Shown here: piece after piece, positions 6,801 through 42,168 of the stretch
Numbering within the stretch: position 1 is the first letter of the stretch
Layout of the letters: every line of letters begins with the position of its first letter
DNA from: Verrucomicrobiia bacterium
GTDB lineage: Bacteria > Verrucomicrobiota > Verrucomicrobiia > Limisphaerales > UBA8199
Direction: 5' to 3'
Length of the DNA: 50,124 bases
Assembly (NCBI GenBank): GCA_035946615.1
Contig: DASYZB010000053.1
Coordinates: 1-50,124 of the forward strand
Position numbers and translations under genes: made by a program
Notes under the pieces: model-generated
Told to the model about the DNA's origin: nothing
Databases searched by the model: none
The model's input: only the letters and a program-made list of their open reading frames with translations

Positions 6801-7733
6801 ATGAGCGCCACAATAGAAAAGAAAACAGATGCAGGCCCGCTCCGAATGCTCCTGTGCAGCGATGGCTCGGAGCAAGCGGACCGCGCCGTCCGCGTGGGCG
6901 CCGCCATCGCCGCCGGATGCCAGGCCGCGGTCACGTTGCTGGGGATTGTGGAAAACCCTGGCAATTTCAATTCCATTCTCGAGTCGCTCAAGCGCGGACA
7001 AGCTCTGCTGGAAGATAAGAAAATCCATGCCGAACTCATCACCAAGGCGGGCGAGCCGCTCGAGGAGATTATCCACCGAACGGAAGAGGCCGCCTATGAC
7101 CTGGTGGTCATTGGCGCCGTGCGCAAGGAAACCCGCGGCTTATTCTGGATGTCCTCCAAATCCTACAAGATCATCAAAGAAATCAAGCCCCCCGTGCTCA
7201 TCGTTGCGGGCCAGGTCGCCACTATCAAGCGGGTGCTCATTTGCAGCGGCGGCAAGCGCTATATCGATGACGCCGTCCGGTTGACCGGCCAAATTGCCCA
7301 TGGCGCCCAGGCCGTCGTGACGCTGTTGCACGTGATGCCTGAGCCCCCGGCTATTTTTGCGGGCCTGCCTCGAATCGAACAGACCTCCGCCTGGTTGCTC
7401 GAATCCCCTTCGGAACTGGGCCGTAATTTGCGGCACGAAAAAGAGATGCTCGAATCCATGGGAGTGACCGCCGAGGTCCGCCTGCGCCATGGGCCGGTCT
7501 TGGAAGAAATTCTGCGCGAGGTGCAACGCGGTGATTATGACCTGGTGGTGACCGGGTCGGCACTCAGCCGCAGCTTGCGCACCTACATGTTGGGCGATAT
7601 CAGCCGTGAAATCGTCAACCGCGCCAACCGCGCCGTCCTGGTCGTGCGCAGCCGCCACAAACCCCTTGTCCCATCGTGGCGATTGCCAAGCTGGTTCGGG
7701 GGCGGGCAACGCTCTAAACCGTTAGCAGATTAG
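6801..7733 (+). CDS. Tandem universal stress protein (UspA x2)
   Basis: The product has 310 residues and two Usp domains, about 14-138 and 141-285. The first has the MLLCSDGSE start and ends PPVLIVAG; the second has VLICSGG and ends AVLVVRS. The ATP-binding G-2x-G-9x-G(S/T) signature is degenerate in both halves, so nucleotide binding is uncertain. A basic tail of about 25 residues follows. Tandem Usp proteins often sit next to transporters or respiratory genes and are thought to modulate stress survival. Here it is last in a three-gene operon with the TauE-type permease. Confidence 0.85.
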   Translation: MSATIEKKTDAGPLRMLLCSDGSEQADRAVRVGAAIAAGCQAAVTLLGIVENPGNFNSILESLKRGQALLEDKKIHAELITKAGEPLEEIIHRTEEAAYDLVVIGAVRKETRGLFWMSSKSYKIIKEIKPPVLIVAGQVATIKRVLICSGGKRYIDDAVRLTGQIAHGAQAVVTLLHVMPEPPAIFAGLPRIEQTSAWLLESPSELGRNLRHEKEMLESMGVTAEVRLRHGPVLEEILREVQRGDYDLVVTGSALSRSLRTYMLGDISREIVNRANRAVLVVRSRHKPLVPSWRLPSWFGGGQRSKPLAD

Positions 7734-7735
7734 CA

Positions 7736-7764
7736 TTGGCATTCGACCCGCCCCGTGCTACATA
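7736..7764 (+). promoter_or_regulatory. Weak sigma-70-like promoter before the small basic protein gene
   Basis: TTGGCA (7736-7741) is separated by 17 nt from TACATA (7759-7764). The -35 is good and the -10 poor. It lies 61 nt upstream of the ATG at 7825 and just after the Usp stop codon. Confidence 0.3.
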
Positions 7765-7824
7765 CACCCTCCGCTTGGAACTTTGAGCGGATTGAAACAA
7801 CCGAATAAACAGGAATTTTGATTT

Positions 7825-7980
7825 ATGTCACAACACCGGAGTTTGCGCGCCGCCGCCACCTTGGGGGGCAAACGCAATGTGCTGAAACGCTTTGAACGAT
7901 TGGAGTTGTTGAAAAAGCGCGGTCAATGGAAACCGGGTGATCGCATCACCGGCTTGCGCAAAACCAAGGGCGAGGCCTAA
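7825..7980 (+). CDS. Small basic protein of the Verrucomicrobia/Chlamydia type
   Basis: The product is 51 residues, strongly basic, and shows the conserved lines KRNVLKRFERLELLKKR and GQWKPGDR. It matches my memory of the small basic protein family TIGR04137, found in Chlamydiae and Verrucomicrobia and suspected to be ribosome- or RNA-associated; its function is not established. AGGA at 7811-7814 is a suitable ribosome binding site. It is followed at once by an rRNA pseudouridine synthase gene, which supports a ribosome link by context only. Confidence 0.85.
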   Translation: MSQHRSLRAAATLGGKRNVLKRFERLELLKKRGQWKPGDRITGLRKTKGEA

Positions 7981-7999
7981 GACCTGTATTCTGGTTCGT

Positions 8000-8695
8000 T
8001 TGCAAAAATATCTTGCCGATGCCGGGATTGCTTCCAGGCGGGCCGGGGAGCAGATGATTCTGGAGGGACGCGTGGCGGTCAACGGCCAATCCATCACGGC
8101 TTTAGGCGCCAAGGTCGATGAGGCGCATGACCAGGTCTCGGTCGATGGCCAACTCGTCCGCCCGAAACGCAAAATTTATCTCGCGTTGAATAAGCCGCGC
8201 GGGTTGGTTTGCTCACGAAAAGACGAATTCGAGCGCCCGACAATTTACGGGCTGCTGCCCAGAGAATGGGGCCACTTGCACTCGGTTGGACGGTTGGATT
8301 TCAATAGCGAGGGCCTGCTCTTTCTGACCAATGACGGCCAGTTGAGCCTGCGGCTGACCCATCCACGCTACGGCATGCACAAGCGCTACCTGGCAACCGT
8401 CGAGGGCCGGGTCCAGGAGCAGACCTTGCGCCTGTTCACGCGCGGAATCTCGCATCAGGGCGAAAAACTGAAGGCCGAAAAGGCGCGAATCATTTCCGCC
8501 GGAACCTCTCAAAGTGTCGTTGAACTCGATTTAGCTGAAGGCAAATATCGCGAAGTGCGGCGGCTCTTCGAGTCCCAGGGCATTTCTGTGAAGCGTTTGC
8601 AACGCATTCAGATTGGCAACATCAAATTGGGCGAGCTGCGCCCGGGCAGATGGCGGACATTGACATCAGCCGAAATTAAATCTCTACTGAGCTAA
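8000..8695 (+). CDS. rRNA pseudouridine synthase, RsuA/RluB family
   Basis: The N-terminal S4 RNA-binding domain (LQKYLADAGIASRR) is followed by the RsuA/RluB catalytic core with GRLDFNSEGLLFLTNDG, whose Asp is the catalytic residue. A C-terminal EVRRLFE region with KRLQRI matches the family. The start is uncertain: no ATG is in frame. TTG 8000 starts just at the S4 domain and lies 19 nt after the upstream stop. A GTG at 7937 would overlap the small basic protein gene by 44 nt and add unconserved residues. No clear ribosome binding site precedes either, so translation may depend on coupling. The product modifies 23S or 16S rRNA; which site cannot be told. Confidence 0.88.
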   Translation: MQKYLADAGIASRRAGEQMILEGRVAVNGQSITALGAKVDEAHDQVSVDGQLVRPKRKIYLALNKPRGLVCSRKDEFERPTIYGLLPREWGHLHSVGRLDFNSEGLLFLTNDGQLSLRLTHPRYGMHKRYLATVEGRVQEQTLRLFTRGISHQGEKLKAEKARIISAGTSQSVVELDLAEGKYREVRRLFESQGISVKRLQRIQIGNIKLGELRPGRWRTLTSAEIKSLLS

Positions 8696-8698
8696 GTT

Positions 8699-9847
8699 AT
8701 GAAAATGACCTGTTGGCTTTTTTTAAGCACGATGCTTTCGACCGGCTTGCTGGCTCAGCAGGCGACCGACGCGCCGCCCGCTGCGCCCATCCAGAGCCCC
8801 GAGTTGGCCCCAGCCATTACCAATGCCCCCGGCCCAACCCAGGAGAACTCGACAAACGCCCCGGCCGTCAAAGCGCCCAAACGCAAACACTCTCCCAGGA
8901 AACACAGCGCAAGTGCCGCCAGAAAAAAAGACCCCGCCGCTGAATTGAGAACGGTGCCGCTGGTAGCCGGCCCGGCGGTCGTGGATGCCAACCATGTCAA
9001 TGTGCGCGGGCAAGCCAAACTGAAGAGCGAAGTGGTCACGCGATTGAGCAAAGGCCAGACCGTCACGGTGCTGGAAGAGATTACTCGAAACCACTCAGGA
9101 CCCAGCGAACCCTCCGCCTGGGCCAAAATCCTTCTGCCAACCAATACGCATGTTTGGGTCAAGTCCTCCTATATCGACGCGACAAACCAAACGGTTCTGG
9201 CCAGGAAACTCAATCTGCGCAGCGGCCCCGGGGAGAATTATAGTGTGTTGGGCCGATTGAAGCGCGGGGATTCCGTCAAGGCCGTTGGGGCTAAGAACGA
9301 CTGGACGCAAATCGAACCGCCGGCTGATGCCTACGCGTTTGTCGCCGCCCAATTCCTGAAGCAGGAGCCGGCGGAGACTGCGCCAACGCCTGCCGCCCCT
9401 GCCGAACCGCCCGCTGCCCCGGCGACCGTCGCCGAGGCCACTCCGCTGGCCCCTGCTCCTGCCGCTAACCCGGCTCCGGCGCCGGCCATCGAGAACCCGG
9501 CTCCAACCAATGCCCCGCCAGAAACGCCGATGGTTACAACTCCAGCGCCCGAGGAGCCGCCACCCAAGCGCATCGTGCAGCACGAAGGCGTGGTGCGCGG
9601 CACCTTCAGCATCCAGGCCCCCACGCATTTCGAGCTCATCAGCCCTGAAAATGGCCGGGTGATTGATTATCTCTACACCACCTCGCCAAACCTCGACCTG
9701 CGCCGCTACAAAGGCTTGCGCATCATCGTCACGGGCGAGGAAGCCCTCGAAGAACGCTGGGGAAATACACCCGTCATTACCATCCAGAAAATTCAGGTCC
9801 TGGACGATTTTTCCCCGCTGCCTAATGGCGCCGGCCAACCTAATTGA
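8699..9847 (+). CDS. Secreted protein with two bacterial SH3 domains and Pro/Ala-rich linker
   Basis: The product has 382 residues: a signal peptide at about 1-19 (cleavage near LLA-QQ), a basic Pro/Ala-rich spacer, and two SH3-like domains at about 95-160 and 165-225 (NVRGQAKLKSEVV and LNLRSGPGENYSVLGRLKRG). A low-complexity Ala/Pro segment at about 230-295 leads to a C-terminal globular region (about 295-382). Bacterial SH3 domains commonly bind peptidoglycan or act in envelope sensing. The stop codon overlaps folD by 23 nt. It starts 3 nt after the pseudouridine synthase gene, so the genes are probably cotranscribed. Confidence 0.8.
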   Translation: MKMTCWLFLSTMLSTGLLAQQATDAPPAAPIQSPELAPAITNAPGPTQENSTNAPAVKAPKRKHSPRKHSASAARKKDPAAELRTVPLVAGPAVVDANHVNVRGQAKLKSEVVTRLSKGQTVTVLEEITRNHSGPSEPSAWAKILLPTNTHVWVKSSYIDATNQTVLARKLNLRSGPGENYSVLGRLKRGDSVKAVGAKNDWTQIEPPADAYAFVAAQFLKQEPAETAPTPAAPAEPPAAPATVAEATPLAPAPAANPAPAPAIENPAPTNAPPETPMVTTPAPEEPPPKRIVQHEGVVRGTFSIQAPTHFELISPENGRVIDYLYTTSPNLDLRRYKGLRIIVTGEEALEERWGNTPVITIQKIQVLDDFSPLPNGAGQPN

Positions 9848-10727
9848 CGGGCGCGCCATCGCTCGCCAACTCCAGAGCGAATTGGCCGGACGCATTGCCA
9901 CTCTCAAATCGCGCGGCATCGAGCCGGGCCTGGCTTTCGTGCGCGTCGGCGAAGACCCCGCCTCCAAAGTCTATGTTGGCCGGAAGGAAAAGACGTGCCA
10001 CGAATTGGCTATCTATTCCGAAACGCACGTACTCCCCCAGAGCGCCAGCGAAGCGGAGTTGCTGGCATTAATCTCCAGGCTCAACGTCAATCGGCGCCTG
10101 CACGGAATTCTGGTTCAAGCGCCGCTCCCGGCCCACATTCGCGCCTCGCGCGTTTATTCGAGCCTGTCGCCCGAGAAGGACGTCGATGGTTTTCATCCGG
10201 TCAATATGGGAAAGCTGATGTTGGGTGATACTACCGGGTTCGTGCCGTGCACTCCGGCGGGCATTCGCGAGTTGCTCACGCGCTCTGAAATCACCATCAG
10301 CGGCGCGGAGGTGGTCATTTTAGGGCGCGGTAACATTGTCGGCAAACCGATGGCGGCCCTGTTGTGCCAAAAAGAAAAAAATGCCAACGCCACCGTAACG
10401 TTGTGCCATTCGGGCACGCGGGACATCGGGACGCATTGCCAGCGGGCGGACATCCTGATCGCGGCGATGGGGGTCGCGCAGTTCGTCAAATCCGATATGG
10501 TCAAGCCGGGCGCAGCAGTGATTGACGTTGGAGTCAATCGAATCGTTGATGCTTCAGCCCCAAGCGGCTCGCGTTTGGCAGGGGATGTGGATTTCGCGGC
10601 CGTGCAACCGATTGCCGGCAAGATCACCCCCAACCCAGGCGGCGTTGGGCCCATGACCATCGCCATGCTGATGCACAATACCGTCCGGGCTGCCGAGTCC
10701 AGTGTGCAATCAACTTCCACCAGATGA
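9825..10727 (+). CDS. folD: Bifunctional methylene-THF dehydrogenase/methenyl-THF cyclohydrolase
   Basis: The product has 300 residues. ATG 9825 lies inside the end of the SH3 gene, in another frame (23-nt overlap), and starts the conserved LIDGRAIA. Signatures are YVGRKEKTC (catalytic Lys), KDVDGFHPVN, PCTPAGI, the NADP-binding GRGNIVGKP and PNPGGVGPMT. FolD interconverts 5,10-methylene-THF and 10-formyl-THF in the cytoplasm and so supplies one-carbon units, including for the purH reaction encoded further on in this window. Length is normal (about 285-300). Confidence 0.96.
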   Translation: MAPANLIDGRAIARQLQSELAGRIATLKSRGIEPGLAFVRVGEDPASKVYVGRKEKTCHELAIYSETHVLPQSASEAELLALISRLNVNRRLHGILVQAPLPAHIRASRVYSSLSPEKDVDGFHPVNMGKLMLGDTTGFVPCTPAGIRELLTRSEITISGAEVVILGRGNIVGKPMAALLCQKEKNANATVTLCHSGTRDIGTHCQRADILIAAMGVAQFVKSDMVKPGAAVIDVGVNRIVDASAPSGSRLAGDVDFAAVQPIAGKITPNPGGVGPMTIAMLMHNTVRAAESSVQSTSTR

Positions 10728-10798
10728 GCCTTTCCTCCTGAACCAACTGCAGCCGCCCAGCTCTCAACGTCAATGCAAAACCCTCCTCCCCGAATCTG

Positions 10799-11239
10799 AT
10801 GCAAGCCACCCGAATCCTCCCTGATTTGCAATGCTCACTCTTGTGCGAAGAAATCCGCCAGGAAGTCACTGGCAATTTTTTTCTCATCGGCGTGATTAAT
10901 TTCATTCGAGTCCCCCAACTGCCCGTTGTGGCTCTCAAGCTCAGTTTATTCAATCGCTGGACTGCCGGAGTCGGGCAATTCACCGAAACGGTTCGTTTCA
11001 TCGCGCCGGACCAAACGACGGTGCTGCGCAAAGGCGAAGTGAAATTCCAGTTGCAGGATGCGACGCTTCACGCGACCAATGTCACCGTTTTCGGCCAGGT
11101 CGAATTGAAGGCCGCAGGCGCTTACTACGTCGAAGTCCTCGTCGATGATGTCATGAAGATTCGCTACCCTCTCTCGGTCATCGTCACACCCCCTAACCAG
11201 CCGCCGCAGGCCCCGCCACCGCAGACGCCTGCCTCCTGA
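10799..11239 (+). CDS. Conserved protein, DUF6941-like
   Basis: The product has 146 residues and no signal peptide. The motif pattern LPDLQCSLLCEEIRQE, then IGVINFI and RYPLSVIV, resembles the DUF6941 family as I recall it: small beta-rich bacterial proteins of unknown role that begin with a conserved line PD.....CEDVR. The C-terminus is a short Pro/Gln-rich tail. It lies 71 nt after folD on the same strand. The family assignment comes from memory of the pattern only. Confidence 0.55.
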   Translation: MQATRILPDLQCSLLCEEIRQEVTGNFFLIGVINFIRVPQLPVVALKLSLFNRWTAGVGQFTETVRFIAPDQTTVLRKGEVKFQLQDATLHATNVTVFGQVELKAAGAYYVEVLVDDVMKIRYPLSVIVTPPNQPPQAPPPQTPAS

Positions 11240-11281
11240 AGGCCCTGGCGACAGCCGCCGCCCCACCGCTGACCCAGCACT

Positions 11282-11327
11282 TAACATTTTGCCGCTGAAG
11301 CCTGTCGCCGAGCGGCAATTGATGTTA
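11282..11327. repeat. Two-part hairpin upstream of a membrane protein gene
   Basis: TTGCCGCT (11289-11296) and AGCGGCAA (11311-11318) form an 8-bp stem. Just outside, TAACAT (11282-11287) and ATGTTA (11322-11327) pair as well, so the arms total 14 bp with a small internal loop. It ends 14 nt before the ATG at 11342. No T-run follows, so it could be a translational control element or a terminator without U-tract. Confidence 0.5.
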
Positions 11328-11341
11328 GAACATGAACAGAT

Positions 11342-12160
11342 ATGGACTCAGAGCCCTTGGCCTGGCAACCGCTGACCCCTCGATGCATCGCCGCTTTCGC
11401 GCGCGCCTCGTTTGGCCGGCTGTGGCTCATTCAGTTTGTGGTGAGTCTGCTTGCAGCCGGAGTCGTGGTTTGGTTCGTCAAAACGGATTGGTATCCCGTG
11501 ATTGCCGAGGCGATTGGACAACTGCCCCCGCAGGGCCAGGTTCGCTCGAGCCGGCTGCTTTGGAATGCCGATTCACCCGTCAGCCTGGCCGAGAATCGGT
11601 TCCTGGCCCTCACCGTGGACCTTAACCATACTGGTGAGGTCCGTTCGCCCGCGCATCTGCAGGCCGAGTTTGGAACCAGCGATATAAAATTGATTTCGTT
11701 ATTCGGTTTTCTGGAGTGCCCTTATCCGCGTGGCTACGTTGTCCCTTTCAACCGGACGGACCTGGGGGCGTGGTGGGGCGCCTGGGGCCCCATCCTGCTG
11801 GCCATAACCGCAGGCGCCGTCGTGCTCTGGCTTTTTTGTTCCTGGTCACTCCTGGCGACGGCCTACTGTTTGCCGGCCTGGTTGCTCGGCTTTTTTGCCA
11901 ATCGCGATTTAACCCTGGCCGGCAGTTGGCGTTTGGCAGGCGCGGCCTTGATGCCCGGTGCGCTGTGGCTGATCGGGGCCATCCTCCTCTACGGCCTGGG
12001 TTGGCTGGATTTAGTGCGCTTGATGGTGGCTGGAGCAATCCATTTTGTTATTGGCTGGATTTATCTTGGTTTTGCAACCTTCAACGCTCCACGCCATCCC
12101 GTCGCAACGGAGCCTGCGGGCAATCCATTCGGCAAAACAGAAAACCCAACAGGTCATTGA
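11342..12160 (+). CDS. Multi-pass membrane protein, function unknown
   Basis: The product has 272 residues. One helix lies at about 28-48; a loop of about 100 residues, probably on the outside, follows; then come about four helices between 150 and 255. A short polar tail follows. No motif is recognised. The following lipoprotein gene starts 32 nt later, so the two may share a transcript. Confidence 0.7.
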   Translation: MDSEPLAWQPLTPRCIAAFARASFGRLWLIQFVVSLLAAGVVVWFVKTDWYPVIAEAIGQLPPQGQVRSSRLLWNADSPVSLAENRFLALTVDLNHTGEVRSPAHLQAEFGTSDIKLISLFGFLECPYPRGYVVPFNRTDLGAWWGAWGPILLAITAGAVVLWLFCSWSLLATAYCLPAWLLGFFANRDLTLAGSWRLAGAALMPGALWLIGAILLYGLGWLDLVRLMVAGAIHFVIGWIYLGFATFNAPRHPVATEPAGNPFGKTENPTGH

Positions 12161-12191
12161 ATGTTCATCCGGCTTTGTTTAGTGTCCTCCT

Positions 12192-12950
12192 ATGACTCGT
12201 TCGGCTGGTCTGGTTCGTGTTGCCCTAGGTCTGCTGCTCATTTTTTCCCTGGGCGGCTGCATGCCCGCAGCCAGCCAGTTGGATGAAGAACGAGAACCCC
12301 ACTTCCTCGCCGGCAAAAGCCGAATCAGCACGATGGATTTTCAGGGGGCGATGGAGGCCTTCGAACAGGCCCTTCAGGTCAATCCCCAATCGGCTTCTGC
12401 TCATTTCGAACTCGCCTGCCTTTGCGACCAAAAAGAGTCCGACCCCGCCGCCGCTATTTATCATTATGATTGTTACCTCAAGCTGCGCCCGGGCGCTGAG
12501 AATGCCGGGGTGGTCAAAGAGCGCATTATGAAATGCAAACAGCAGTTGGCGCAAACCGTCTCTCTGGGGCCAGTGTCCGAAAAAGTGCAGCACGACCTGC
12601 AAGAACTCACGCAGGAGAATCAAAGACTCACCGAACAAAATCGGGTTTTGAAAGCTCAACTGGATAGCTGGCAAGCTTACGCCGCGCGCCTCGATGCGCT
12701 CACCAACCAACCACCCGCTGCCATCCCATCCAGAGCCCCTTCTCTTGTCGCTGCGCCTATTCCAACCAACCTTGCCGAGGCTCCCACTGCGCCAACCACT
12801 CACCGCACCCACACCGTCAAACCCGGCGAAACCCCCATCCTCATCGCAAAGAGATATGGAATCCGGCTCAACGCTCTCCTGGCCGCCAACCCGGGACTCG
12901 ACCCGCGCCGATTGCGCGTCGGCCAGAACTTGAACGTGCCCGGTCGATGA
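12192..12950 (+). CDS. LysM/TPR lipoprotein
   Basis: The product has 252 residues. A signal peptide ends in the lipobox LGGC (Cys23). TPR-like helices span about 35-105 (FQGAMEAFEQAL, then ASAHFELACL), a heptad-rich coiled coil covers about 125-165, and a Pro/Ala/Thr-rich linker leads to a LysM domain at about 203-250 (HTVKPGETPILIAKRYGI, then RLRVGQNLNVP). LysM binds peptidoglycan N-acetylglucosamine, so the protein should be a membrane-anchored, cell-wall-bound scaffold. It may be the last gene of a cell-envelope transcript that starts at 11342. A 265-nt regulatory gap follows. Confidence 0.82.
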   Translation: MTRSAGLVRVALGLLLIFSLGGCMPAASQLDEEREPHFLAGKSRISTMDFQGAMEAFEQALQVNPQSASAHFELACLCDQKESDPAAAIYHYDCYLKLRPGAENAGVVKERIMKCKQQLAQTVSLGPVSEKVQHDLQELTQENQRLTEQNRVLKAQLDSWQAYAARLDALTNQPPAAIPSRAPSLVAAPIPTNLAEAPTAPTTHRTHTVKPGETPILIAKRYGIRLNALLAANPGLDPRRLRVGQNLNVPGR

Positions 12951-13106
12951 AAGGAAAAAAAATCAAAAAAATCTTTGAACAATTCGTCAAGGCGTTAGTC
13001 AAAATCCAAATGGCTTCTTGCGTCCTCATGCGGAGCTTGGCGCAGGGAGAGCAGTGTAAGCGGGTGGCAAAGCAGTCTTGCTTTTCTCACCCCTGGACAA
13101 TGAAAA

Positions 13107-13121
13107 AAATCTAAAAGATTT
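13107..13121. promoter_or_regulatory. Palindrome next to the -35 of the exopolysaccharide-locus promoter
   Basis: AAATCT (13107-13112) and AGATTT (13116-13121) are perfect arms around AAA. It ends 2 nt before the TTGACG -35 element, where an activator or repressor could act. Confidence 0.4.
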
Positions 13122-13123
13122 AT

Positions 13124-13152
13124 TTGACGTGCTCGCGCAATTTGGATAAAAC
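13124..13152 (+). promoter_or_regulatory. Sigma-70-type promoter for the beta-barrel gene
   Basis: TTGACG (13124-13129) and TAAAAC (13147-13152) are separated by exactly 17 nt, in an AT-rich stretch. The likely transcript would carry a leader of about 57 nt before ATG 13216. No other convincing promoter lies in the 265-nt gap after the LysM lipoprotein gene. Confidence 0.5.
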
Positions 13153-13215
13153 CTTACAGGATTTAAATTGTTCGCACACTCTCTTTGGGTGTAAAAGAAC
13201 GCGAAATCAGAACCT

Positions 13216-14568
13216 ATGAAAAAAATCGTTGCCTCCGTCGGTTTGGTTGCGCTCGGCGCGTCTGCAATTCAATCTGCCTGTGCCCAGGATTTGGGGACTC
13301 CGGATACCTCGAAGCCCTGGAGCATCTCGGTCGCGCTCCGTGGCTTTTATGATGATAACCCGGGCACACTCCCGAACGATACCCCCACTCCCGCGGGGTA
13401 CCATCGAAGCTCGTTCGGTTTCCAGGTGAGCCCCCAGGCCGCCTTGGCGTGGTCTGTGGAGAATACCACTGTGAGCCTCGGTGTGCTTTATTCGATGATT
13501 TATTACGAGAATAAACCCGTCTTCAGCACCAGCCATATCGACCAGGATTTCACCTTCACCGGCAACCTCACCCACGATTTCAGCGAACAACTCCATGCGC
13601 GGGTCACGGATTCGTTCGTGATCGGCCAGGAACCTGACATGCTGCGCGCCGGCAATGCGTTCTCCACGTTTTATCGCGTCTCAGGCGACAACATCCGCAA
13701 CTACGGCACCATCGCTTTGGATGCCCAGCTTACGCCTGTGTTTGGGCTGAGCCTGGGCTACGATAATGCCTATTACCATTATGTGGCCAATGGGGCGACC
13801 GCTGTGCCAGTGGGCCCCTTTGAGGATGTCATTCAACCCAGTATCGCCGGTGTGCTGAATCGGGATGAGAATCGCGCTCACATCGAGGGCACATTCCAAC
13901 TGCAACCCGAGACCAAGGCCCTTTTGGGGTATCAATTCTCTGATTTCGATTACATGGGTGATGAATACATCGGTGGGTTCATTCCGGCGTTTGGCCCTCC
14001 AGTTGGCCTCATCACCAGCCGGATGCGCGACAACCGCGAGCACACGGTTTATGTGGGTATCGAGCACAATTTCCTGCCGAACTTAACCGCAGCCGTTCGC
14101 GCCGGCGGCAGCTATACGGATTATTATAACGATCCCAGCACCAAGGCCAGCTACACGCCTTACGTGAACGCGACACTGAAGTACACCTACGCTCCGGGCA
14201 GCTTCATCGAGGGCGGTTTTTCTTATGACCGCAATGCAACCGACATTGTCGGTTTCAGTTTCAACGGAACCGGTAGTGATTTCACGACCGATGCCGAGTC
14301 AGCGGTGGTGTTCCTGACGCTGCAGCATCAGCTTCTGGGCAACCTCTTTTTGAACCTCAACGGCCAATTCCAGAACTCGATTTACAACGGCGGCGCGTTC
14401 AACAACGACGCCGAACAGTTTTACATGGCGGGCATCGACCTGCAGTACCGGTTCACCGCCTTCTTCTCGGGCGATGTTGGTTACAGCTATGACCGGTTGG
14501 AATCCAGCATCATGGGCCGTGCCTTTGATGAGAATCGAGTTTACGTTGGCGTTACCGCCACATATTAG
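13216..14568 (+). CDS. Outer-membrane beta-barrel protein of an exopolysaccharide locus
   Basis: The product has 450 residues. A signal peptide is cleaved near ACA-QD (residue 23). The mature chain alternates short aromatic-rich strands throughout and ends in a strand with terminal tyrosine (YVGVTATY), the outer-membrane insertion signal. It resembles BBP2/OMP beta-barrel porins often encoded beside Wzc/Wza genes. A role in polysaccharide passage is inferred from context. It has its own promoter upstream and a strong intrinsic terminator 21 nt after the stop. Confidence 0.8.
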   Translation: MKKIVASVGLVALGASAIQSACAQDLGTPDTSKPWSISVALRGFYDDNPGTLPNDTPTPAGYHRSSFGFQVSPQAALAWSVENTTVSLGVLYSMIYYENKPVFSTSHIDQDFTFTGNLTHDFSEQLHARVTDSFVIGQEPDMLRAGNAFSTFYRVSGDNIRNYGTIALDAQLTPVFGLSLGYDNAYYHYVANGATAVPVGPFEDVIQPSIAGVLNRDENRAHIEGTFQLQPETKALLGYQFSDFDYMGDEYIGGFIPAFGPPVGLITSRMRDNREHTVYVGIEHNFLPNLTAAVRAGGSYTDYYNDPSTKASYTPYVNATLKYTYAPGSFIEGGFSYDRNATDIVGFSFNGTGSDFTTDAESAVVFLTLQHQLLGNLFLNLNGQFQNSIYNGGAFNNDAEQFYMAGIDLQYRFTAFFSGDVGYSYDRLESSIMGRAFDENRVYVGVTATY

Positions 14569-14589
14569 TTTAGGATTGATGTAGTAACC

Positions 14590-14622
14590 GGGGGGCTGGG
14601 CTAAAACTAGCCCCCCTTTTTA
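14590..14622 (+). terminator. Intrinsic terminator between the beta-barrel gene and the Wzc-like gene
   Basis: GGGGGGCT (14590-14597) pairs with AGCCCCCC (14609-14616) and is followed by TTTTTATT. An alternative inner stem GGGCTA/TAGCCC with a 4-nt loop also fits. The U-tract ends 10 nt before the start codon of the next gene, leaving no room for a promoter in between. Confidence 0.85.
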
Positions 14623-14632
14623 TTGACGTTAT

Positions 14633-16798
14633 ATGGATCCATCGAAAACACCACCGCCGCAGGAGGCCAAGCTTCACTTCCTGGATTATTGGCGCATTAT
14701 TCGTATTCGCAAGACGGTCATCCTGGCGGTTTTTTTGCTGGTAGTGATTACCGCCACCCTGGTGACATTCATTCTGCCCGAGTCGTTCTCAAGCAAGGCC
14801 CGCATTAAAGTCGAGCGCGACCAGACGGACATCTCCGGGGTGATGGGCAACCAGCCAATGCTGGGCGTTTATGATCCTTATTTCATCCAAACCGAGTTCG
14901 AAGTGATCCAATCCGAGGTTATCCTCGGCGATGTCATCAAGGACCTCAATCTGCAGGAAACCTGGGGCAAGAAATATAATAATGGGCAGCCCTTCACGCG
15001 CACTGAGGCCATGACCTGGATCAAAAACCATTTGGATTTGCGGCCCGTCCGCAACACCAGCCTCATCGAGATCGTCTATTACAGCGAGAGCCCCCAGGAG
15101 GCCTCCGACCTTGCCAACAAAATCGCTGAAACTTATCGCAAGCACCGTGTGCAAGAGCGCCAGAGCCTGACTCAGGGCGGCATTAAAGCCCTCGAAGAGC
15201 GCATCGGCGAACAGGAGAGCACAGTGGACAAGCAGCAGCAGGTCGTCGATGACCTGCGCGATAAACTTAAGATTTCCGACCCCCTCGGCTCATCGGAGGC
15301 CCCAACCATGATGCTCTCGGCGGAAACCTTGCGCCACATTGAAGGAATTCGCATCGAAAGCCAGGCTGAGTTCGTTGGGGCCAAGACGTTGCTGGACAGC
15401 TTGAAGGGCCTGCCTCCCGACAAACTGGCCCAGGCTATTCCGACCACCGGGGTGCAGGACTCCCTGTTGTCGGGGTTGCTCGAACAATTGACCCTTGCCG
15501 ATCAAAAGCTGGTTGCCGCTGAGAAGCAATTAGGGCCAAAGAACACAGAGTATGCGACCATCAGCGCTCAGGTCGATGACATCAACAAGAAGATTAGAGA
15601 ACGTGTGGACGGTATTGTCCTTGGGCTGGACATCAAGGCTGGCGCGCTCCAGCAGCGCCTGATTGACTTGAGCAACGAGGTCACCGCAGCGACCCAAAAG
15701 GACATCAACAAGTCCACCGAGAGCCGCCCGTATTGGGAAGCCAAGCGCAAACTCGAGGAGTACCAACGATTCCGCCAGGTCCTCTATATGAAGATCGCCT
15801 CGGAAAAGACCGAGTTGGATTTACCCAGGGCCTCGATGGTGGAAATTGTGGACCGCGCCGTGCCCGGCATCAAACCTGTTCGCCCCAACAAGACGCTCAA
15901 TATAGCTTTAGGCATTATCATCGGGCTGGTGGTCGGGGTCGGGTTGGCCTTCTTCATTGAATACCTCGATACCAGCGTGAAGACCATCGACGATGTCGAA
16001 CGCACCTTGGGCGCCCCCGTGCTGGGCGTTATCCCGCAGAATGTCGGCTTGCTCACCGAAGAGGGAGGAGAAAGCCCGCATGCGGAGGCCTATCGCGTGC
16101 TGCGCACCAATCTGCTATTCTCGCGAAAGGACGACAAGCTCAACACGGTGGCGGTCGTCAGCGCGGGCGCCGGCGAAGGCAAATCCACGACCGTGTTCAA
16201 CCTGGCAGCCGTCTTTGCCCAGAGCGGCCAGCGGGTGCTCATGGTGGACTCCGACTTGAGGCGGCCCACCCTGCACAAGATGCTCCATGTCAGCAACAGC
16301 ATCGGGCTGACCAATTATCTTCTGAAGCAAAACACGCTCGAAGAAGTCATCCAGACCTCCAATCTGCCGAGCCTCGACTTTATGGCGAGCGGCAAATTGC
16401 CGAGCAGCTCGCTGGGCATTCTCAGTTCGGCCCAGATGCGCGATTTGATCACTGAATTGAAGCAACATTATGACTTTGTCTTTTTCGACTCTCCCCCTGT
16501 CATGGGCGTGAGTGACGCCTCCATCCTGGCCAGCGAAGTCGATATGACCTTGCAAGTCATCCAGTATCGGCGGTACCCGCAACCGATGAATATTCGCGCC
16601 AAGCAGTTGATCGAGAAGGTAGGCGGCAACCTCATCGGCATCGTGCTGAACAACATCAATATGTCGCAGGATGAGAGCTACTATTATTACAGCGGGTATT
16701 ACCACGATTATTACACGCATAATGAAGAGGAGCCCGCTGCGCCCGTAAAAGGCGGCAATGGCGAGAAAGACAAACTTGAAATCAAACAAAGATATTGA
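14633..16798 (+). CDS. Wzc-like polysaccharide co-polymerase/tyrosine autokinase
   Basis: The product has 721 residues. The N-terminal Wzz domain has a helix at about 29-49; long coiled coils fill the periplasmic part (about 165-390), and a second helix lies at about 420-440. The cytoplasmic BY-kinase has Walker A GAGEGKST (Lys517), Walker A' MVDSDLRRP (Asp539, Asp541) and Walker B FFDSPP (Asp619). The C-terminal tail carries eight tyrosines between 683 and 694, the autophosphorylation cluster, plus Tyr721. Such kinases control chain length and export of exopolysaccharide. The start ATG follows the upstream terminator by 10 nt and has no Shine-Dalgarno match. The Wza-like gene starts 15 nt later. 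Confidence 0.93.
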   Translation: MDPSKTPPPQEAKLHFLDYWRIIRIRKTVILAVFLLVVITATLVTFILPESFSSKARIKVERDQTDISGVMGNQPMLGVYDPYFIQTEFEVIQSEVILGDVIKDLNLQETWGKKYNNGQPFTRTEAMTWIKNHLDLRPVRNTSLIEIVYYSESPQEASDLANKIAETYRKHRVQERQSLTQGGIKALEERIGEQESTVDKQQQVVDDLRDKLKISDPLGSSEAPTMMLSAETLRHIEGIRIESQAEFVGAKTLLDSLKGLPPDKLAQAIPTTGVQDSLLSGLLEQLTLADQKLVAAEKQLGPKNTEYATISAQVDDINKKIRERVDGIVLGLDIKAGALQQRLIDLSNEVTAATQKDINKSTESRPYWEAKRKLEEYQRFRQVLYMKIASEKTELDLPRASMVEIVDRAVPGIKPVRPNKTLNIALGIIIGLVVGVGLAFFIEYLDTSVKTIDDVERTLGAPVLGVIPQNVGLLTEEGGESPHAEAYRVLRTNLLFSRKDDKLNTVAVVSAGAGEGKSTTVFNLAAVFAQSGQRVLMVDSDLRRPTLHKMLHVSNSIGLTNYLLKQNTLEEVIQTSNLPSLDFMASGKLPSSSLGILSSAQMRDLITELKQHYDFVFFDSPPVMGVSDASILASEVDMTLQVIQYRRYPQPMNIRAKQLIEKVGGNLIGIVLNNINMSQDESYYYYSGYYHDYYTHNEEEPAAPVKGGNGEKDKLEIKQRY

Positions 16799-16813
16799 GA
16801 GTGAGATAGTGAC

Positions 16814-17533
16814 ATGACGAAGATGAGCGCAAGCAAGTTGGCGGGCGGTTGGAGGGCAGTGTGCGGTTTGGTGTTTGGCGTATTATTGCTGGCCGGATGC
16901 AAGAGCGGCGCGGGTGACCCGCGCTTCGCGGACATGCCGGGAGGGCCGGCTGGCTCCTCGGCGATTGCCTCGCCGGCAATTGCCGCCCCGGCTCCTGTCA
17001 CAGGGGCCGCCATGGACCCAGGGTCCATGGACCAAACCAACGTCCTTGACGTGCTGCACCCCAATGACGCCGTGATTATCACGTTCAGCGATCTGCCAGT
17101 CCCACAGCCGCCCATCTCGGACCGGGTCAAGGAAGACGGCACCATTACTTTAATCCAGAACCAGACGTTCCAGGCCGCTGGCAAAACCCGCCGCGATTTG
17201 GAGAAGGAGATTCGCGCGCGGTATGTCCCGGATTACTTCAAGACCATGACCGTCCAAGTCGAGCATGCCGAACAGAGCCGGTTTTATTATGTGGGCGGTG
17301 AGGTGAAACTGCCTGCTCGCCAGATTTACATCAGCCGCATCACAGTCCTGAAGGCCATTCAATCTGCAGGTGATTTTACAGACTTTGCCAGAAAACGAGG
17401 CGTCGTTTTGACCCGCGCCAATGGCAAGACGGTCACAGTCAATTGCGTTCGGGCCCAGCGGCATCCGGAACTGGACCTCGAGATTTTTCCTGGAGACAAA
17501 ATCTGGGTGCCGCGCCGCAATCCGTTCTGGTAA
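16814..17533 (+). CDS. Wza-like polysaccharide export lipoprotein
   Basis: The product has 239 residues. The lipobox LLAGC places the lipidated cysteine at residue 29. An Ala/Pro-rich linker is followed by a Poly_export domain at about 75-160 (LHPNDAVIITFSD, then VKEDGTITL) and a SLBB-type domain at about 160-235 (VGGEVKLPAR, then LKAIQSAGDF), ending near PGDKIWVPRR. It should form the outer-membrane export channel that partners the Wzc-like kinase. At 239 residues it is shorter than E. coli Wza (379): it has a single SLBB domain and no clear C-terminal membrane helix. Its stop overlaps the ATG of the FHA gene (TAATG). Confidence 0.9.
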   Translation: MTKMSASKLAGGWRAVCGLVFGVLLLAGCKSGAGDPRFADMPGGPAGSSAIASPAIAAPAPVTGAAMDPGSMDQTNVLDVLHPNDAVIITFSDLPVPQPPISDRVKEDGTITLIQNQTFQAAGKTRRDLEKEIRARYVPDYFKTMTVQVEHAEQSRFYYVGGEVKLPARQIYISRITVLKAIQSAGDFTDFARKRGVVLTRANGKTVTVNCVRAQRHPELDLEIFPGDKIWVPRRNPFW

Positions 17534-17922
17534 TGGTCCAATTCAAAATCCTGTCCGGCAAACAGGCGGGCGCCACGTGGGTTGCCCGCCGTTTTCCTGT
17601 ACAGGTTGGCCGCGGCTCACAGAACGGCCTGCGGCTTGAGGAAGATGGTGTTTGGGAGAAGCATTTCGTCCTGGATTGCGACGCGGCCGAAGGCTTCATT
17701 CTGAGAACGGAGGCCCAGGCCCTGGTGCGCGTCAACGGCCAGGCTGTCGAACGGCTTTCCCTGCGAAACGGGGACCTTGTCCAACTCGGTTCGGCCAGCC
17801 TGCAATTCTGGCTTGGGGATACCCGCCAAAGGGCGTTGGGGCTGCGCGAGGCGGTCTCCTGGGCGTCCATCTGCTTGGTTACCCTGGCCCAAATCGCCTT
17901 GCTTTACTGGCTCCTGCAATGA
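17533..17922 (+). CDS. FHA-domain protein with C-terminal membrane helix
   Basis: The product has 129 residues. The start is fixed by the TAATG overlap with the export lipoprotein gene. An FHA fold is seen at about 15-95 (VGRGSQNGLRL, then VRVNGQAVERLSLRNGDLVQLG). The usual GR-S-NG elements are largely present but the SxxH part is altered (DGVWEKHFVL). A hydrophobic helix at about 107-128 anchors the protein, with FHA facing the cytoplasm. FHA domains bind phosphothreonine peptides, so it may read a phosphorylation state connected to the exopolysaccharide machinery. A Ser/Thr kinase gene lies 28 kb away in the window. It converges with purH. Confidence 0.8.
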   Translation: MVQFKILSGKQAGATWVARRFPVQVGRGSQNGLRLEEDGVWEKHFVLDCDAAEGFILRTEAQALVRVNGQAVERLSLRNGDLVQLGSASLQFWLGDTRQRALGLREAVSWASICLVTLAQIALLYWLLQ

Positions 17923-17940
17923 ACGAACTCAGCGGATGGA

Positions 17941-19494
17941 TTAATGCCTGAAATGCCGTATTCCTGTGAAGACCATGGCCAGGCCACGACTATCCGCCGC
18001 GGCAATAATCTCGGCATCCCGCACTGAACCGCCTGGCTGAATCGCCGCTGTGGCTCCCGCCTCGGCTGCTGCCACCAGCGCATCCGGAAAGGGAAAAAAA
18101 GCATCGCTGCATACGGTGCTGCCTGCAAGAGAGAGCCCGGCCTGGCCTGCCTTCCAAACTGCTAAACGGCTCGAATCAACCCGGCTCATCTGGCCTGCGC
18201 CAATGCCCAATGTCCGGTCTGCGGTTGCGTACGCAATCGCGTTGGACTTGACGTGCTTGACCACTCGCCAGCCAAATGACATCGCCTGCCATTCTGACTC
18301 GGTTGGTTGACGTTGCGTCACGACTTTGCCCCTTTCGCCCATAGCCGGTTTTGCGTCCGGTGCTTGCGCCAAATACGATTCGGCGCCCACACTGCGTATA
18401 TCGAGACCTTCGGTACTATGAGGCGACCGGAGCATTCGCATCATGCGGAGGTTCTTCTTCTTTCTCAGCAAATCGAGGGCTTCGGGAGTGAAATCGGGGG
18501 CCACAATCACTTCGCTGAATATTTCCGCAATCGCCTCGGCAACGGCCAAATCGAGGATGCGATTGACAGAAATAATGCCGCCAAAGGGCGCTTGGCGGTC
18601 TGTCGCAAATGCCTTTTCCCAGGCCTCGCGCAAGGTAGCGCCCTGGCCAACACCGCAAGGATTGGTGTGCTTGAGAATCGCCAGGGCAGGGCCGTCGGCG
18701 GAAAACTCACTGATTAAGGCGGCAGCGGCTGTGAGGTCCAGAATGTTATTGTACGACAGCTCCTTGCCGTGCAGTTGCCGGAAGTACTCATGGAATCGGC
18801 CATAAAGACTGGCGCCCTGGTGTGGGTTTTCTCCGTAGCGAAGCGTTTGAGCTAACGGCGCATGGACCGCCAGAACACAAGGAAGACCTCCCGGCGCGAC
18901 CACGTCAAAGCTTTTGCTAAAATAAGCGGCAATGGCGGCATCATACCCTGCCGTCCGTGCGAAGACCTTGGCTGCAAGCCTTCGCCGCAGGTCCAGGGTT
19001 GTATTGCCCTCGCGCTGAACTTGAGCAGCCACTTCCGCGTAATCAGCCGGGTCCACGACGACCGTGACGCTCTCGTGGTTTTTGGCCGCGCTGCGGAGCA
19101 TCGAGGGGCCGCCAATGTCGATGTTTTCTATTGCCTCCTGGAGAGTCGCCTCAGGCCGGGCGACGGTCTGCTCGAACGGATACAGGTTCACTACCACGAG
19201 ATCGATCGGCAGGATGCCATGCTCGCGAATGGCGGTTTCATGCGCCGGATTGGTTCGCACGTAGAGCAGTCCCCCATGAACTTTTGGATGGAGGGTTTTG
19301 ACACGTCCATCCAGCATTTCAGGAAACCCGGTGTAGGCGCTCAGATCGGTAACTTGCAAGCCCCCCTCGCGCAGGGTTTTGGCAGTCCCTCCCGTGGAAA
19401 TCAGTTCGACGCCGCCGGCTGCAAGAGTTTTGGCCAAAGAGACCAGGCCCGTTTTGTCTGAAACCGAAAGCAGCGCTCGTTGAATTCGACCCAT
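17941..19494 (-). CDS. purH: Bifunctional AICAR transformylase/IMP cyclohydrolase
   Basis: The product has 517 residues from ATG 19494, which starts [16 protein letters not shown]; a longer frame adds three residues. The N-terminal IMP cyclohydrolase (MGS-like) domain has [10 protein letters not shown]. The C-terminal AICAR transformylase domain has the KHTNPCGVG motif. It performs the last two steps of IMP synthesis in the cytoplasm, using 10-formyl-THF that FolD can supply. Length fits the family (about 510-530). The gene stands alone on the reverse strand, with about 250 nt upstream that hold no gene. Confidence 0.96.
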
Positions 19495-19651
19495 AAGGCG
19501 CAATACCTTTGGTCAACCAGCCCGGCGAGTCAATGCACAAATCGGCTAAGCCGTAACCAGTCAATTTGAACAGGAGATAAGAGAGAAAACAGAGACGTGA
19601 ACACGAAGCCAAAACTGTTTCTTACACCCTTGTGGCTGCTCACTAAATGGT

Positions 19652-19669
19652 GAGGCGCTGTTGCGCCTC
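19652..19669. repeat. Hairpin between Sel1 gene and purH
   Basis: GAGGCGC (19652-19658) and GCGCCTC (19663-19669) enclose TGTT, a compact 7-bp GC-rich stem. It lies 71 nt past the stop of the Sel1 gene and upstream of purH, both on the reverse strand, so it may help to end the Sel1 transcript. No T-run follows. Confidence 0.4.
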
Positions 19670-19740
19670 CCTTGCTCACAAAGTGCTTCAAAAATCTCTG
19701 TTCTCTCCGTTTCCTCCTGTTGCATTTTGCGTGTTCCGGG

Positions 19741-20466
19741 CTAGGGAATCACTGCAGCGTCGCCTGCCTGTTCGATGGCGGGCTCCGCCTCGCGGGTAGC
19801 CTCTTCGGCGGCTTCCAGGGTTGCGTAATAAACCCCCAGATTGTGTTGAGCGGTTTTGTCTCCAGCTCGCGCGGAGCGGCAGAACCACTTTACGGCTTCG
19901 CGCACGTTCTGTGGCACACCACGCCCGGTCTCGTAACATAGTCCCAGATTGCACTGCGCTGGAGCGCACTCCTGCTCGGCCGCCAAACGGTACCAGCGGA
20001 CTGCCTCCTCGTAATTCTGCGGCACGACCTGGCCCGTCTCATAAAAGACGCCCAGGTTAAACTGCGCCTGCGGCTCACCCTGTTCGGCAGCCGCATGATA
20101 CCACTTGACCGCCTCGGCATAATTCTGCGGCACACCTTGCCCGGTCTCGTACAGCACACCCAGATTGAATTGCGCCGCCGGGTCTCCCTGCTCGGCTGCT
20201 TCCCGAAACCACTTGGCGGCCTGTCCAAACTCCTGCGGAACGCCCGTCCCGGTTTGAAAACAAAAACCAAGATAACACTGAGCTGACGAATCATTCTGTT
20301 CAGCGGCACGGCGGAACCACTTGACCGCTTCGGGATGGTCCTGCTTGACCCCCTGCCCGGTTTGAAAGCAAATCCCCAAATAGCATTGCGCGGCGGCATC
20401 GCCCTGTTCGGCGGCTCTTCGCATTTCATCGAACGATTGCCAGCTTCGGCGGTTTATCTGTGTCAT
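19741..20466 (-). CDS. Sel1-repeat protein
   Basis: The product has 241 residues. Five complete 36-residue Sel1-like repeats and a partial sixth cover about 24-220; each repeat follows the plan AQ.NLG.-.YETG.GVPQN..EAVKW...AAEQG. Such alpha-alpha superhelices mediate protein-protein contacts. There is no signal peptide. At the DNA level the gene is a 108-bp tandem repeat, which could be unstable. The tail is acidic and alanine-rich. Nothing in the neighbourhood reveals a partner. Confidence 0.9.
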   Translation of the reverse strand: MTQINRRSWQSFDEMRRAAEQGDAAAQCYLGICFQTGQGVKQDHPEAVKWFRRAAEQNDSSAQCYLGFCFQTGTGVPQEFGQAAKWFREAAEQGDPAAQFNLGVLYETGQGVPQNYAEAVKWYHAAAEQGEPQAQFNLGVFYETGQVVPQNYEEAVRWYRLAAEQECAPAQCNLGLCYETGRGVPQNVREAVKWFCRSARAGDKTAQHNLGVYYATLEAAEEATREAEPAIEQAGDAAVIP

Positions 20467-20645
20467 ACAGCCAGAGTTCAGTAGCCCAGGCCTCCATCGG
20501 TTTACCCCTCAAACCCGGTGCTTGCTTTATGATAAAAGTAAATGGGGCGATTTCAAGCCCTGAGTTGGGCCCAGCCATTCCTGCGTGTAGGAGACGACGT
20601 AAGGAGTGTCTGATCAGCAACTTCCGGGTGAACCAAAGGCGGCAG

Positions 20646-20674
20646 TTGACAGTCTTATCGGAGACTGCTGTCAT
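20646..20674 (+). promoter_or_regulatory. Promoter with overlapping dyad, upstream of a response regulator
   Basis: TTGACA (20646-20651) and TGTCAT (20669-20674) are 17 nt apart, 52 nt before ATG 20727. The arms TGACAGTCT (20647-20655) and AGACTGCTGTCA (20662-20673) form an imperfect palindrome that exactly covers the promoter, as an operator would. Confidence 0.4.
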
Positions 20675-20726
20675 TGGGCCCTGGCTTCCCCCTTGCCAGC
20701 AAGCCAGAGCGGGTGTTTACTGAAAA

Positions 20727-21143
20727 ATGGAAATGGAAATTGAAAGGCCAACGGGCGAGCCATCTGAGGAGCGCCCGACCCGGACTTTGGTGTATGTGGT
20801 CGATGATGAGGCAATGCTTTTGGAACTGGCTACGGTCATCCTTGCGCCCTTGGGCTATGAAATCCGCGCTTTCCGTGACCCCGAGGCCGCCGTCCGGGCC
20901 TATGCTGCCGCCTCCCCTCGGCCGGCCCTGGTCATTACGGACTACGCCATGCATAATATGAACGGCATGGCGCTCATCCAAGCCTGCCGCCGGCTCGAAC
21001 CGGCCCAGAAGATACTGCTGGTCAGTGGTACAGTTGGTCCGGAGATTTTTGATAAAATGCCTTCCAAACCGAACCGATTCCTGGCTAAACCTTATCAAGC
21101 CAAACAACTTGTGGACCTCGTTAAATCCGTTTTAGAAAGTTGA
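20727..21143 (+). CDS. Single-domain response regulator (CheY-like receiver)
   Basis: The product has 138 residues: an N-terminal extension of about 18 residues, then one receiver domain. Acidic pocket VDDE, phosphoacceptor Asp72 (VITDYAMHNMNG), Ser100 and Lys121 (LAKPY) are all in place. There is no output domain, so it works by protein-protein contact or as a phosphorelay intermediate. The hybrid histidine kinase at 24414 is a possible partner but not adjacent. The AsmA-like gene starts 51 nt downstream. Confidence 0.88.
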   Translation: MEMEIERPTGEPSEERPTRTLVYVVDDEAMLLELATVILAPLGYEIRAFRDPEAAVRAYAAASPRPALVITDYAMHNMNGMALIQACRRLEPAQKILLVSGTVGPEIFDKMPSKPNRFLAKPYQAKQLVDLVKSVLES

Positions 21144-21194
21144 GACCAATTGCCCCTCGAACCCACCGCGCTTTTACCTTAATTCGCACCGTCT

Positions 21195-21980
21195 ATGAAA
21201 AAAATCATCGTTCGCGTTTTAGTCGCCTTGGTCATTCTCGTCATTCTGGCGGGTGTGGCAGTCGCACTGTTCCTGGACACCGCTATCAAGCGTGGCATCG
21301 AAACCGCAGGGCCCATGCTGGCCAAAGTCGAGGTCAAACTCGACTCCGTCAACCTATCGCTCCTCTCCGGTTCAGGGAAGCTCAAGGGCCTTTTCGTCGG
21401 CAACCCACAAGGCTTCAAAACCGCCTCCGCCATCCAGGTCGCCACCGCCAGCCTCGCTCTGGAACCGCGCTCGCTCTTCTCTGACAAGGTCGTTATCCGG
21501 GCGATCGACCTGGAAGGGCCCGAAATCACTTTCGAAACGGATTTGAAAAAGAACAATCTCAACCAGATTCTCGACAACCTGCAGGACAGCACAGGTGGCG
21601 AAAACGCGCCTCCCAAACCCAACGAGCCCGCCCCGGTGCAACAGGCCAAAGCCACCAAGAAACTGCAGGTGGACGATTTCCTAATTCGTGGCGGCAAGGT
21701 GCATGTCAGCGTAACTGGTTTGGGTGGACGGGAGATGAGTGTGGCGTTGCCGGAAATTCACTTGACGGCTTTGGGCCAGGGGCCTGAAGGCATTACACCG
21801 GCGGAGCTTGCCAAAGAAGTGCTGCAAGCGGTTGAGAAAGAGGCGGCACAGGCCTCCAGCGCATCGGTGGCCGATTTGAGCAAGCAGGCAACTGGCCTGC
21901 TCAAGGGTGTGACGCCAGGCAGCAATAGCGCCGTGGATAACATCAGCAAGGGCATCGGCGGCCTGTTCAAGAAGAAGTAA
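21195..21980 (+). CDS. AsmA/DUF748-like membrane-anchored periplasmic protein
   Basis: The product has 261 residues. One N-terminal helix at about 5-27 anchors a periplasmic beta-rich region. Features such as LDSVNLSLLSGSGKLKGL and IDLEGPEITFE recall the N-terminal part of AsmA/DUF748 proteins, which act in outer-membrane lipid transport or assembly. Those proteins are usually much longer, so this is a short relative or another envelope protein with the same start. A basic tail ends the protein (FKKK). Assignment is by pattern. Confidence 0.6.
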   Translation: MKKIIVRVLVALVILVILAGVAVALFLDTAIKRGIETAGPMLAKVEVKLDSVNLSLLSGSGKLKGLFVGNPQGFKTASAIQVATASLALEPRSLFSDKVVIRAIDLEGPEITFETDLKKNNLNQILDNLQDSTGGENAPPKPNEPAPVQQAKATKKLQVDDFLIRGGKVHVSVTGLGGREMSVALPEIHLTALGQGPEGITPAELAKEVLQAVEKEAAQASSASVADLSKQATGLLKGVTPGSNSAVDNISKGIGGLFKKK

Positions 21981-22017
21981 ACTATTGGGGCTCGAGGACG
22001 CCTGTAATCTTGGGCGG

Positions 22018-41619: not shown

Positions 41620-42168
41620 TTAGCCCTTCTCCACTTGCCAGTACTCGAGTTCGACAGGGGTGTTGCGGCCAAAAATGTTGACGGTCACTTTCAGTTTGCC
41701 CCGTTCGGGTTCGACTTCCTCGATGACCCCGCTAAAGTTGAGGAATGGGCCGTTGTTAATCTTGACGGTCTCGCCCACATCGAAGCTGATCTTTGGTTTC
41801 TCGTGCTCTTCAGAGGCAGAAATCTGGCTCTTGATGGACTCGACCTCTTCGGCTGGGGTCGGCGTGGGGGGTTCGCCGCCTACGAACCCGATGACACCCT
41901 GGGTTTCTTTAATGAAGTACCAGGGCTTTTCAATAATCCGGTTGTTCTCATCCAGCAGCACCATATCGACAAACACATACCCAGGCCAAAGCTTGCGCGT
42001 CGAGACGGTCTTTTTTTGGTTGCGCACCTCGACGACCTTTTCCATGGGAACGAGGACTTCTTTAATGAAATCACCCATTTCCTCGGGTTTAATGCGCTTT
42101 TCGATACTCTCTTTGACCTTCTGCTCCTGGCCGGAAAGAGTATGGATGACAAACCACTGGCTTCGCAT
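41620..42168 (-). CDS. nusG: Transcription antitermination/termination factor NusG
   Basis: The product has 182 residues from ATG 42168, starting RSQWFVIHTLSGQE; an upstream TTG adds five residues. The NGN domain (about 3-110) carries WPGYVFVDM; an acidic linker follows, and the KOW domain ends with GRNTPVELEYWQVEK. It couples RNA polymerase to Rho or to the ribosome. It lies 22 nt after secE and 51 nt before the rplK start. Confidence 0.97.
   Translation of the reverse strand: MRSQWFVIHTLSGQEQKVKESIEKRIKPEEMGDFIKEVLVPMEKVVEVRNQKKTVSTRKLWPGYVFVDMVLLDENNRIIEKPWYFIKETQGVIGFVGGEPPTPTPAEEVESIKSQISASEEHEKPKISFDVGETVKINNGPFLNFSGVIEEVEPERGKLKVTVNIFGRNTPVELEYWQVEKG

Follow-up and report, generated by a model that had tools for sequence, protein, structure and literature searches.

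An order-wide conserved terminator-like hairpin between a beta-barrel gene and a wzc-like kinase gene in the Limisphaerales

A real, order-wide conserved terminator-like element was recognized in the Limisphaerales at the junction between the gene for an outer-membrane beta-barrel protein and that for a Wzc-like tyrosine kinase. A hairpin followed by a U-rich tract lies just 5' of the kinase ATG in 116 of the 121 orthologous loci compared, which represent about 55 family-level groups, and a chance origin of the hairpin is excluded by this conservation. With a probability of roughly 0.7, the hairpin and its U-tract constitute an intra-operonic intrinsic terminator, that is, an attenuator, between the barrel gene and wzc-wza. 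Such an element would probably be a built-in brake, with which the cell makes much more barrel protein than kinase.

The window (the whole stretch of DNA analysed here, 50,124 nucleotides) comes from contig C53 of a 5.6-Mb genome, and the relatives used for comparison are metagenome-assembled genomes of Verrucomicrobia subdivision 3/Limisphaerales that were retrieved by name. The features discussed are listed in Table 1. The barrel protein also shows weak similarity, below the cut-off, to the PEP-CTERM-system outer-membrane protein TIGR03016 (NCBIfam), and the C-terminus of the kinase is tyrosine-rich. The stop codon of the barrel gene occupies 14566–14568, leaving an interval of 64 nt before the kinase gene. 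The gap between the kinase and wza-like genes ranges from -8 to 43 nt in 30 loci, and no terminator was found at this second junction in the window. Because they share a strand and are separated by short gaps, the barrel, kinase and wza-like genes are predicted to form a single transcription unit.

Table 1. Positions of the genes and signals of the barrel-wzc-wza region in the window
Feature	Position	Strand	Evidence
Barrel promoter (-35 TTGACG 13124–13129, 17-nt spacer, -10 TAAAAC 13147–13152)	13124..13152	+	Conserved motif, PWM
Small hairpin of the barrel 5'-UTR (ACACUC...GGGUGU)	13176..13192	+	Read from sequences
Outer-membrane beta-barrel gene (BBP2_2)	13216..14568	+	Pfam PF10082, E = 4e-16
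Terminator hairpin (predicted)	14590..14616	+	Folding; covariation over 43 sequences; model R1, 42.6 bits
U-tract TTTTTATT	14617..14624	+	Sequence; T-run conserved in relatives
Wzc-like chain-length/BY-kinase gene	14633..16798	+	Pfam Wzz, GNVR and AAA_31; TIGR01007 above cut-off
Wza-like export lipoprotein gene	16814..17533	+	Poly_export and SLBB; 15 nt past the kinase gene

The stem, GGGGGGCTGG/CTAGCCCCCC, is GC-rich and consists of 10 pairs with a 7-nt loop. Together with short flanks it is predicted to fold at -23 kcal/mol (z = -3.3), and none of the shuffled sequences folded equally well. Among the terminator-like sites listed for the 15 kb from 7000 to 22000, this hairpin ranked first, and its d'Aubenton-Carafa-type score is +53, a value at which the hairpin at 14590–14616 and its U-tract would rank as a strong intrinsic terminator. 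Two features of intrinsic terminators are found here, namely a U-tract directly 3' of a GC-rich hairpin and compensatory changes that keep the stem in the relatives. An earlier note on this DNA had placed an intrinsic terminator at 14590–14622, ending 10 nt before the start codon of the kinase gene, and had claimed that a promoter has no room between the U-tract and the ATG; the coordinates and the spacing are correct, and a sigma-70 promoter indeed does not fit there. A repeat or mobile-element origin of the hairpin was rejected, as the 27-mer is single-copy in the genome even when up to three mismatches are allowed.

A search of the family and order gave 58 genomes with the kinase, and upstream sequences were obtained from 53 orthologous loci. 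In 51 of these 53, a hairpin with a T-run ends 6–22 nt (median 12) short of the kinase start codon; the hairpin is absent in G049 and G052, and among the 51 it is weak in two (L034 and L052). The d score exceeds 0 in 47 of 51 relatives, with a median of +34. The distance from the barrel stop to the stem is 14–53 nt (median 23), which is enough for the hairpin to form behind a terminating ribosome. For an independent check, 146 genomes of the order were scanned with the covariance model R1 and with the N-terminal portion of the kinase, which gave 68 kinase loci from genomes left out of the building of R1; the two match lists were paired by hand. An R1 match was found just 5' of the kinase in 45 of the 68 loci, and direct inspection of the remaining 23 revealed a diverged hairpin with a U-rich tract abutting the ATG in 20. 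In several of these the architecture is retained although the stem sequence has been replaced, as in GGGAGCC...GGCTCCC and GGAGGGGGTCAGTG...CACTGACCCCCTCC. This retention of hairpin, U-tract and position while the stem is replaced is as predicted by selection for termination. In one further locus (L246) the hairpin is sited farther upstream of the kinase, and two loci of group f41 (L248 and L249) have no good hairpin. Thus the hairpin appears to be dispensable in some lineages, since f41 and G049 manage without it.

Four loci have lost the hairpin while keeping both the barrel and the kinase genes: L051 (G052), L248 (G139) and L249 (G093), all belonging to f41, and L041 (G049). These lineages are natural controls for readthrough.

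Forty class relatives from beyond the order were retrieved as a control, of which 38 could be scored. The barrel-kinase gene pair is usually present in them, and an abutting terminator was recognized in only one of the 38 loci (G182); in G169, the terminator is 27 nt away. The G182 terminator (L173), just 5' of the kinase ATG, has a different sequence and is possibly an independent gain.

The best match of R1 is the kinase site in most genomes. The second matches that were examined are terminators 3' of groEL or of other genes, with an RGGCYGG core and near-perfect stems, and none of them lies just 5' of a convincing gene start. The conserved GGCTGG core of the kinase hairpin is partly a lineage-wide terminator habit. 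The terminators 3' of groEL in L121, L125 and L126 indicate that an RGGCYGG/CCRGCCY core is favoured in terminators across the order. No R1 match at the paralogous kinases on the home genome's other contigs was present among the matches listed. In a crude scan of 384 kb of the home genome, few terminators immediately preceded a start on the same strand; the acpP-fabF junction has one of these few. On contig C9 of the same genome (G000; L146, minus strand), a strong hairpin with a T-run (stem 357–395 of the reverse complement) lies 12 nt 5' of the ATG of a response-regulator-like receiver gene.

The alignment of 43 sequences (A1) has the form GGGAGGCTGGA...TCTAGCCTCC-T8. In the 10-pair helix, 96.5% of the cells are paired, and changes on both sides occur at five pairs. 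Double-change cells number 26, versus 8.7 in shuffles, and slid registers are much worse; these cell counts overstate the number of events, because one pair's GC/AU change mostly follows a split between clades. The kinase stems have a median stability of -18.7 kcal/mol, and a G.U pair occurs in 50 of 51, versus 12 of 20 comparison terminators. A leaky stem tuned by the G.U wobble is therefore possible, and this is only suggestive because the comparison terminators were chosen with the same model.

Upstream of the barrel gene, the motif TTGACR-N17/18-TAAAA is found at -82 to -99 from the ATG in most of the 19 relatives scored. A PWM trained on 15 of these barrel-upstream sites gave a mean of 17.2 for the barrel upstreams, a figure that is partly in-sample. 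With this PWM, the kinase upstream regions (-150 to +40) scored 3.82 versus 3.85 in shuffles, showing no promoter above chance, and the interior of the barrel gene scored 5.15 versus 5.78 in shuffles, again with no promoter signal. A promoter within the hairpin or across the T-tract and ATG was likewise rejected, its scores equalling those of shuffles. Thus no separate downstream promoter was found, as is expected of an attenuator, among barrel-like promoters, which are the kind that the scan sees; unlike or species-private promoters inside the barrel gene would escape it. Given a conserved barrel promoter, none at the kinase and the short gap between the kinase and wza, the simplest route to the kinase mRNA is readthrough. 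Of the two routes that had been proposed for expression of the kinase, readthrough of the barrel transcript is consequently the better supported, and an internal promoter in the barrel gene is not favoured by its scores. Within the barrel leader, a GGCA...GGGTGT motif (13170–13192 in the window) recurs in the upstream regions L198–L217 of relatives, on the 3' side of the conserved promoter, and can form a small hairpin.

In the proposed attenuation, most transcripts would stop at the U-tract, so that the barrel mRNA would be monocistronic and stable at its 3' end, and a minority would pass the hairpin to give a barrel-wzc-wza mRNA. With such minority readthrough, the barrel protein would be made in excess over the kinase and the exporter. 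Ribosomes could enter the readthrough mRNA independently of an SD sequence, at the U-tract and the unstructured first part of the kinase gene; the stretch 3' of the stem is predicted to be no more structured than shuffles. The earlier note had pointed to the missing Shine-Dalgarno sequence before the kinase. There is indeed none, and an SD-like tetramer is likewise absent from all 53 kinase starts and all 20 barrel starts compared. This lack is not special to the kinase, and it is uninformative because the genome has little or no SD signal: such tetramers occur at 18 of 111 well-bounded starts versus 14 of 111 at a control position.

Several other explanations were weighed against this attenuator. 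A regulated version, in which a NusG paralog, an RNA-binding protein or the ribosome at the barrel stop switches wzc-wza on conditionally, is rather unlikely. A terminator this strong in sequence requires some means of passage, and the stem core GGCUGG/CURGCC with its conserved G.U is kept beyond structural need. However, the upstream 150 nt show no excess of pairing with the 5' arm (-12.78 versus -13.03 shuffled) or with the 3' arm (-10.51 versus -10.29 shuffled), the loops vary in length and sequence, and the structure persists in several lineages whose stem sequence has been replaced. NusG-family paralogs do occur in these genomes; in several relatives (G004, G006, G009 and G010) one adjoins another, paralogous kinase gene, and the only NusG-family gene of the window (41833–42159, the best-scoring NusG match) is 27 kb from the operon and is presumably the housekeeping nusG. 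An Rfam scan of the window at the gathering threshold gave three tRNAs only, with no match to a riboswitch or other cis-regulatory RNA. Two narrower candidates were rejected: alternative-fold attenuation, since no conserved pairing that would compete with the terminator was found in the upstream 150 nt, and a sequence-specific protein site as the sole reason for conservation, since very different stems retain the hairpin, the U-tract and the place. Of the two roles suggested for the hairpin, that of an attenuator is therefore the better supported, given the order-wide junction hairpin and a conserved promoter found at the barrel gene only, and no support was found for that of a switch, in view of the variable loops and the lack of excess pairing. 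It is also fairly improbable that the element is dual-purpose throughout the order, with the U-tract as the site of ribosome entry for the kinase in a lineage lacking Shine-Dalgarno sequences and with passage gated by some factor that switches between kinase/exporter and barrel.

It is unlikely that the hairpin serves only RNA processing or stability, with full transcription past it and, after cleavage downstream, protection of the barrel mRNA at its 3' end, so that the two parts decay differently. Differential decay within bacterial operons is documented (PMC5927463), and such protection would also act after termination, but a long U-tract is unneeded for protection and is kept in almost all loci. 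If instead the terminator were complete, the barrel gene would be its own unit and the kinase would be served by a promoter of its own within that gene. The strong score agrees with this, and yet the PWM scan of the 53 loci gave neither a promoter above shuffles nor one at a conserved position between -600 and +40 relative to the kinase, which makes a full terminator quite improbable. Lastly, it is very doubtful that the main role of the hairpin is in ribosome entry at the kinase start codon rather than in termination. The tightly limited distance from the stem end to the ATG, the unstructured region 3' of the stem and the lack of a genome-wide SD signal would suit this role, whereas the U run straight 3' of the stem is a requirement of terminators, and the same gene pair has no such hairpin in class relatives outside the order.

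Internal terminators usually come to light through RNA mapping in individual model organisms. In the present case, comparison of sequences was sufficient to reveal a predicted internal terminator kept at the same junction across a mostly uncultured order. If it terminates as proposed, a junction terminator kept order-wide would imply that the ratio of barrel to kinase and exporter is under lasting selection. Testable predictions follow for the stoichiometry of polysaccharide export and for translation that starts without an SD sequence close behind a terminator.

Similar arrangements are known from other systems. In the cps clusters of Klebsiella pneumoniae, a Rho-independent stem-loop attenuator is predicted between wzc and wbaP (PMC3438125), and the present element resembles it as a predicted attenuator beside wzc in a polysaccharide operon. 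The Klebsiella attenuator is, however, 3' of wzc in a JUMPStart/RfaH cluster, whereas that of the Limisphaerales is 5' of wzc and 3' of the barrel gene; nothing of the RfaH type was found here, and the predicted stability is -23 kcal/mol versus -8.5 in Klebsiella (PMC3438125). In Methanococcus maripaludis, internal-operon termination sites (ioTTS) set differential expression (PMC10450193), and these likewise are terminators between genes of one operon that reduce the downstream genes. Their termination is archaeal and their effect was measured, whereas the effect here is inferred (PMC10450193). The acpP-fabF junction of the home genome (G000:C1, L138 3514–3552) has a strong GC-rich hairpin and a T-rich stretch, with the fabF ATG 8 nt on; there too, a hairpin separates an enzyme gene from one whose product the cell needs in excess, although the U-tract is short. 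The processive antitermination systems RfaH/ops, LoaP and EAR share the operon class (exopolysaccharide) and provide means past internal terminators. This situation is different from that of the window, which has no Rfam match beyond the tRNAs and no NusG paralog near the operon. No report of an element at the barrel-wzc junction was found in the open-licence full-text literature. In short, the kind of element is already known, but its place is new and its order-wide conservation is unusual.
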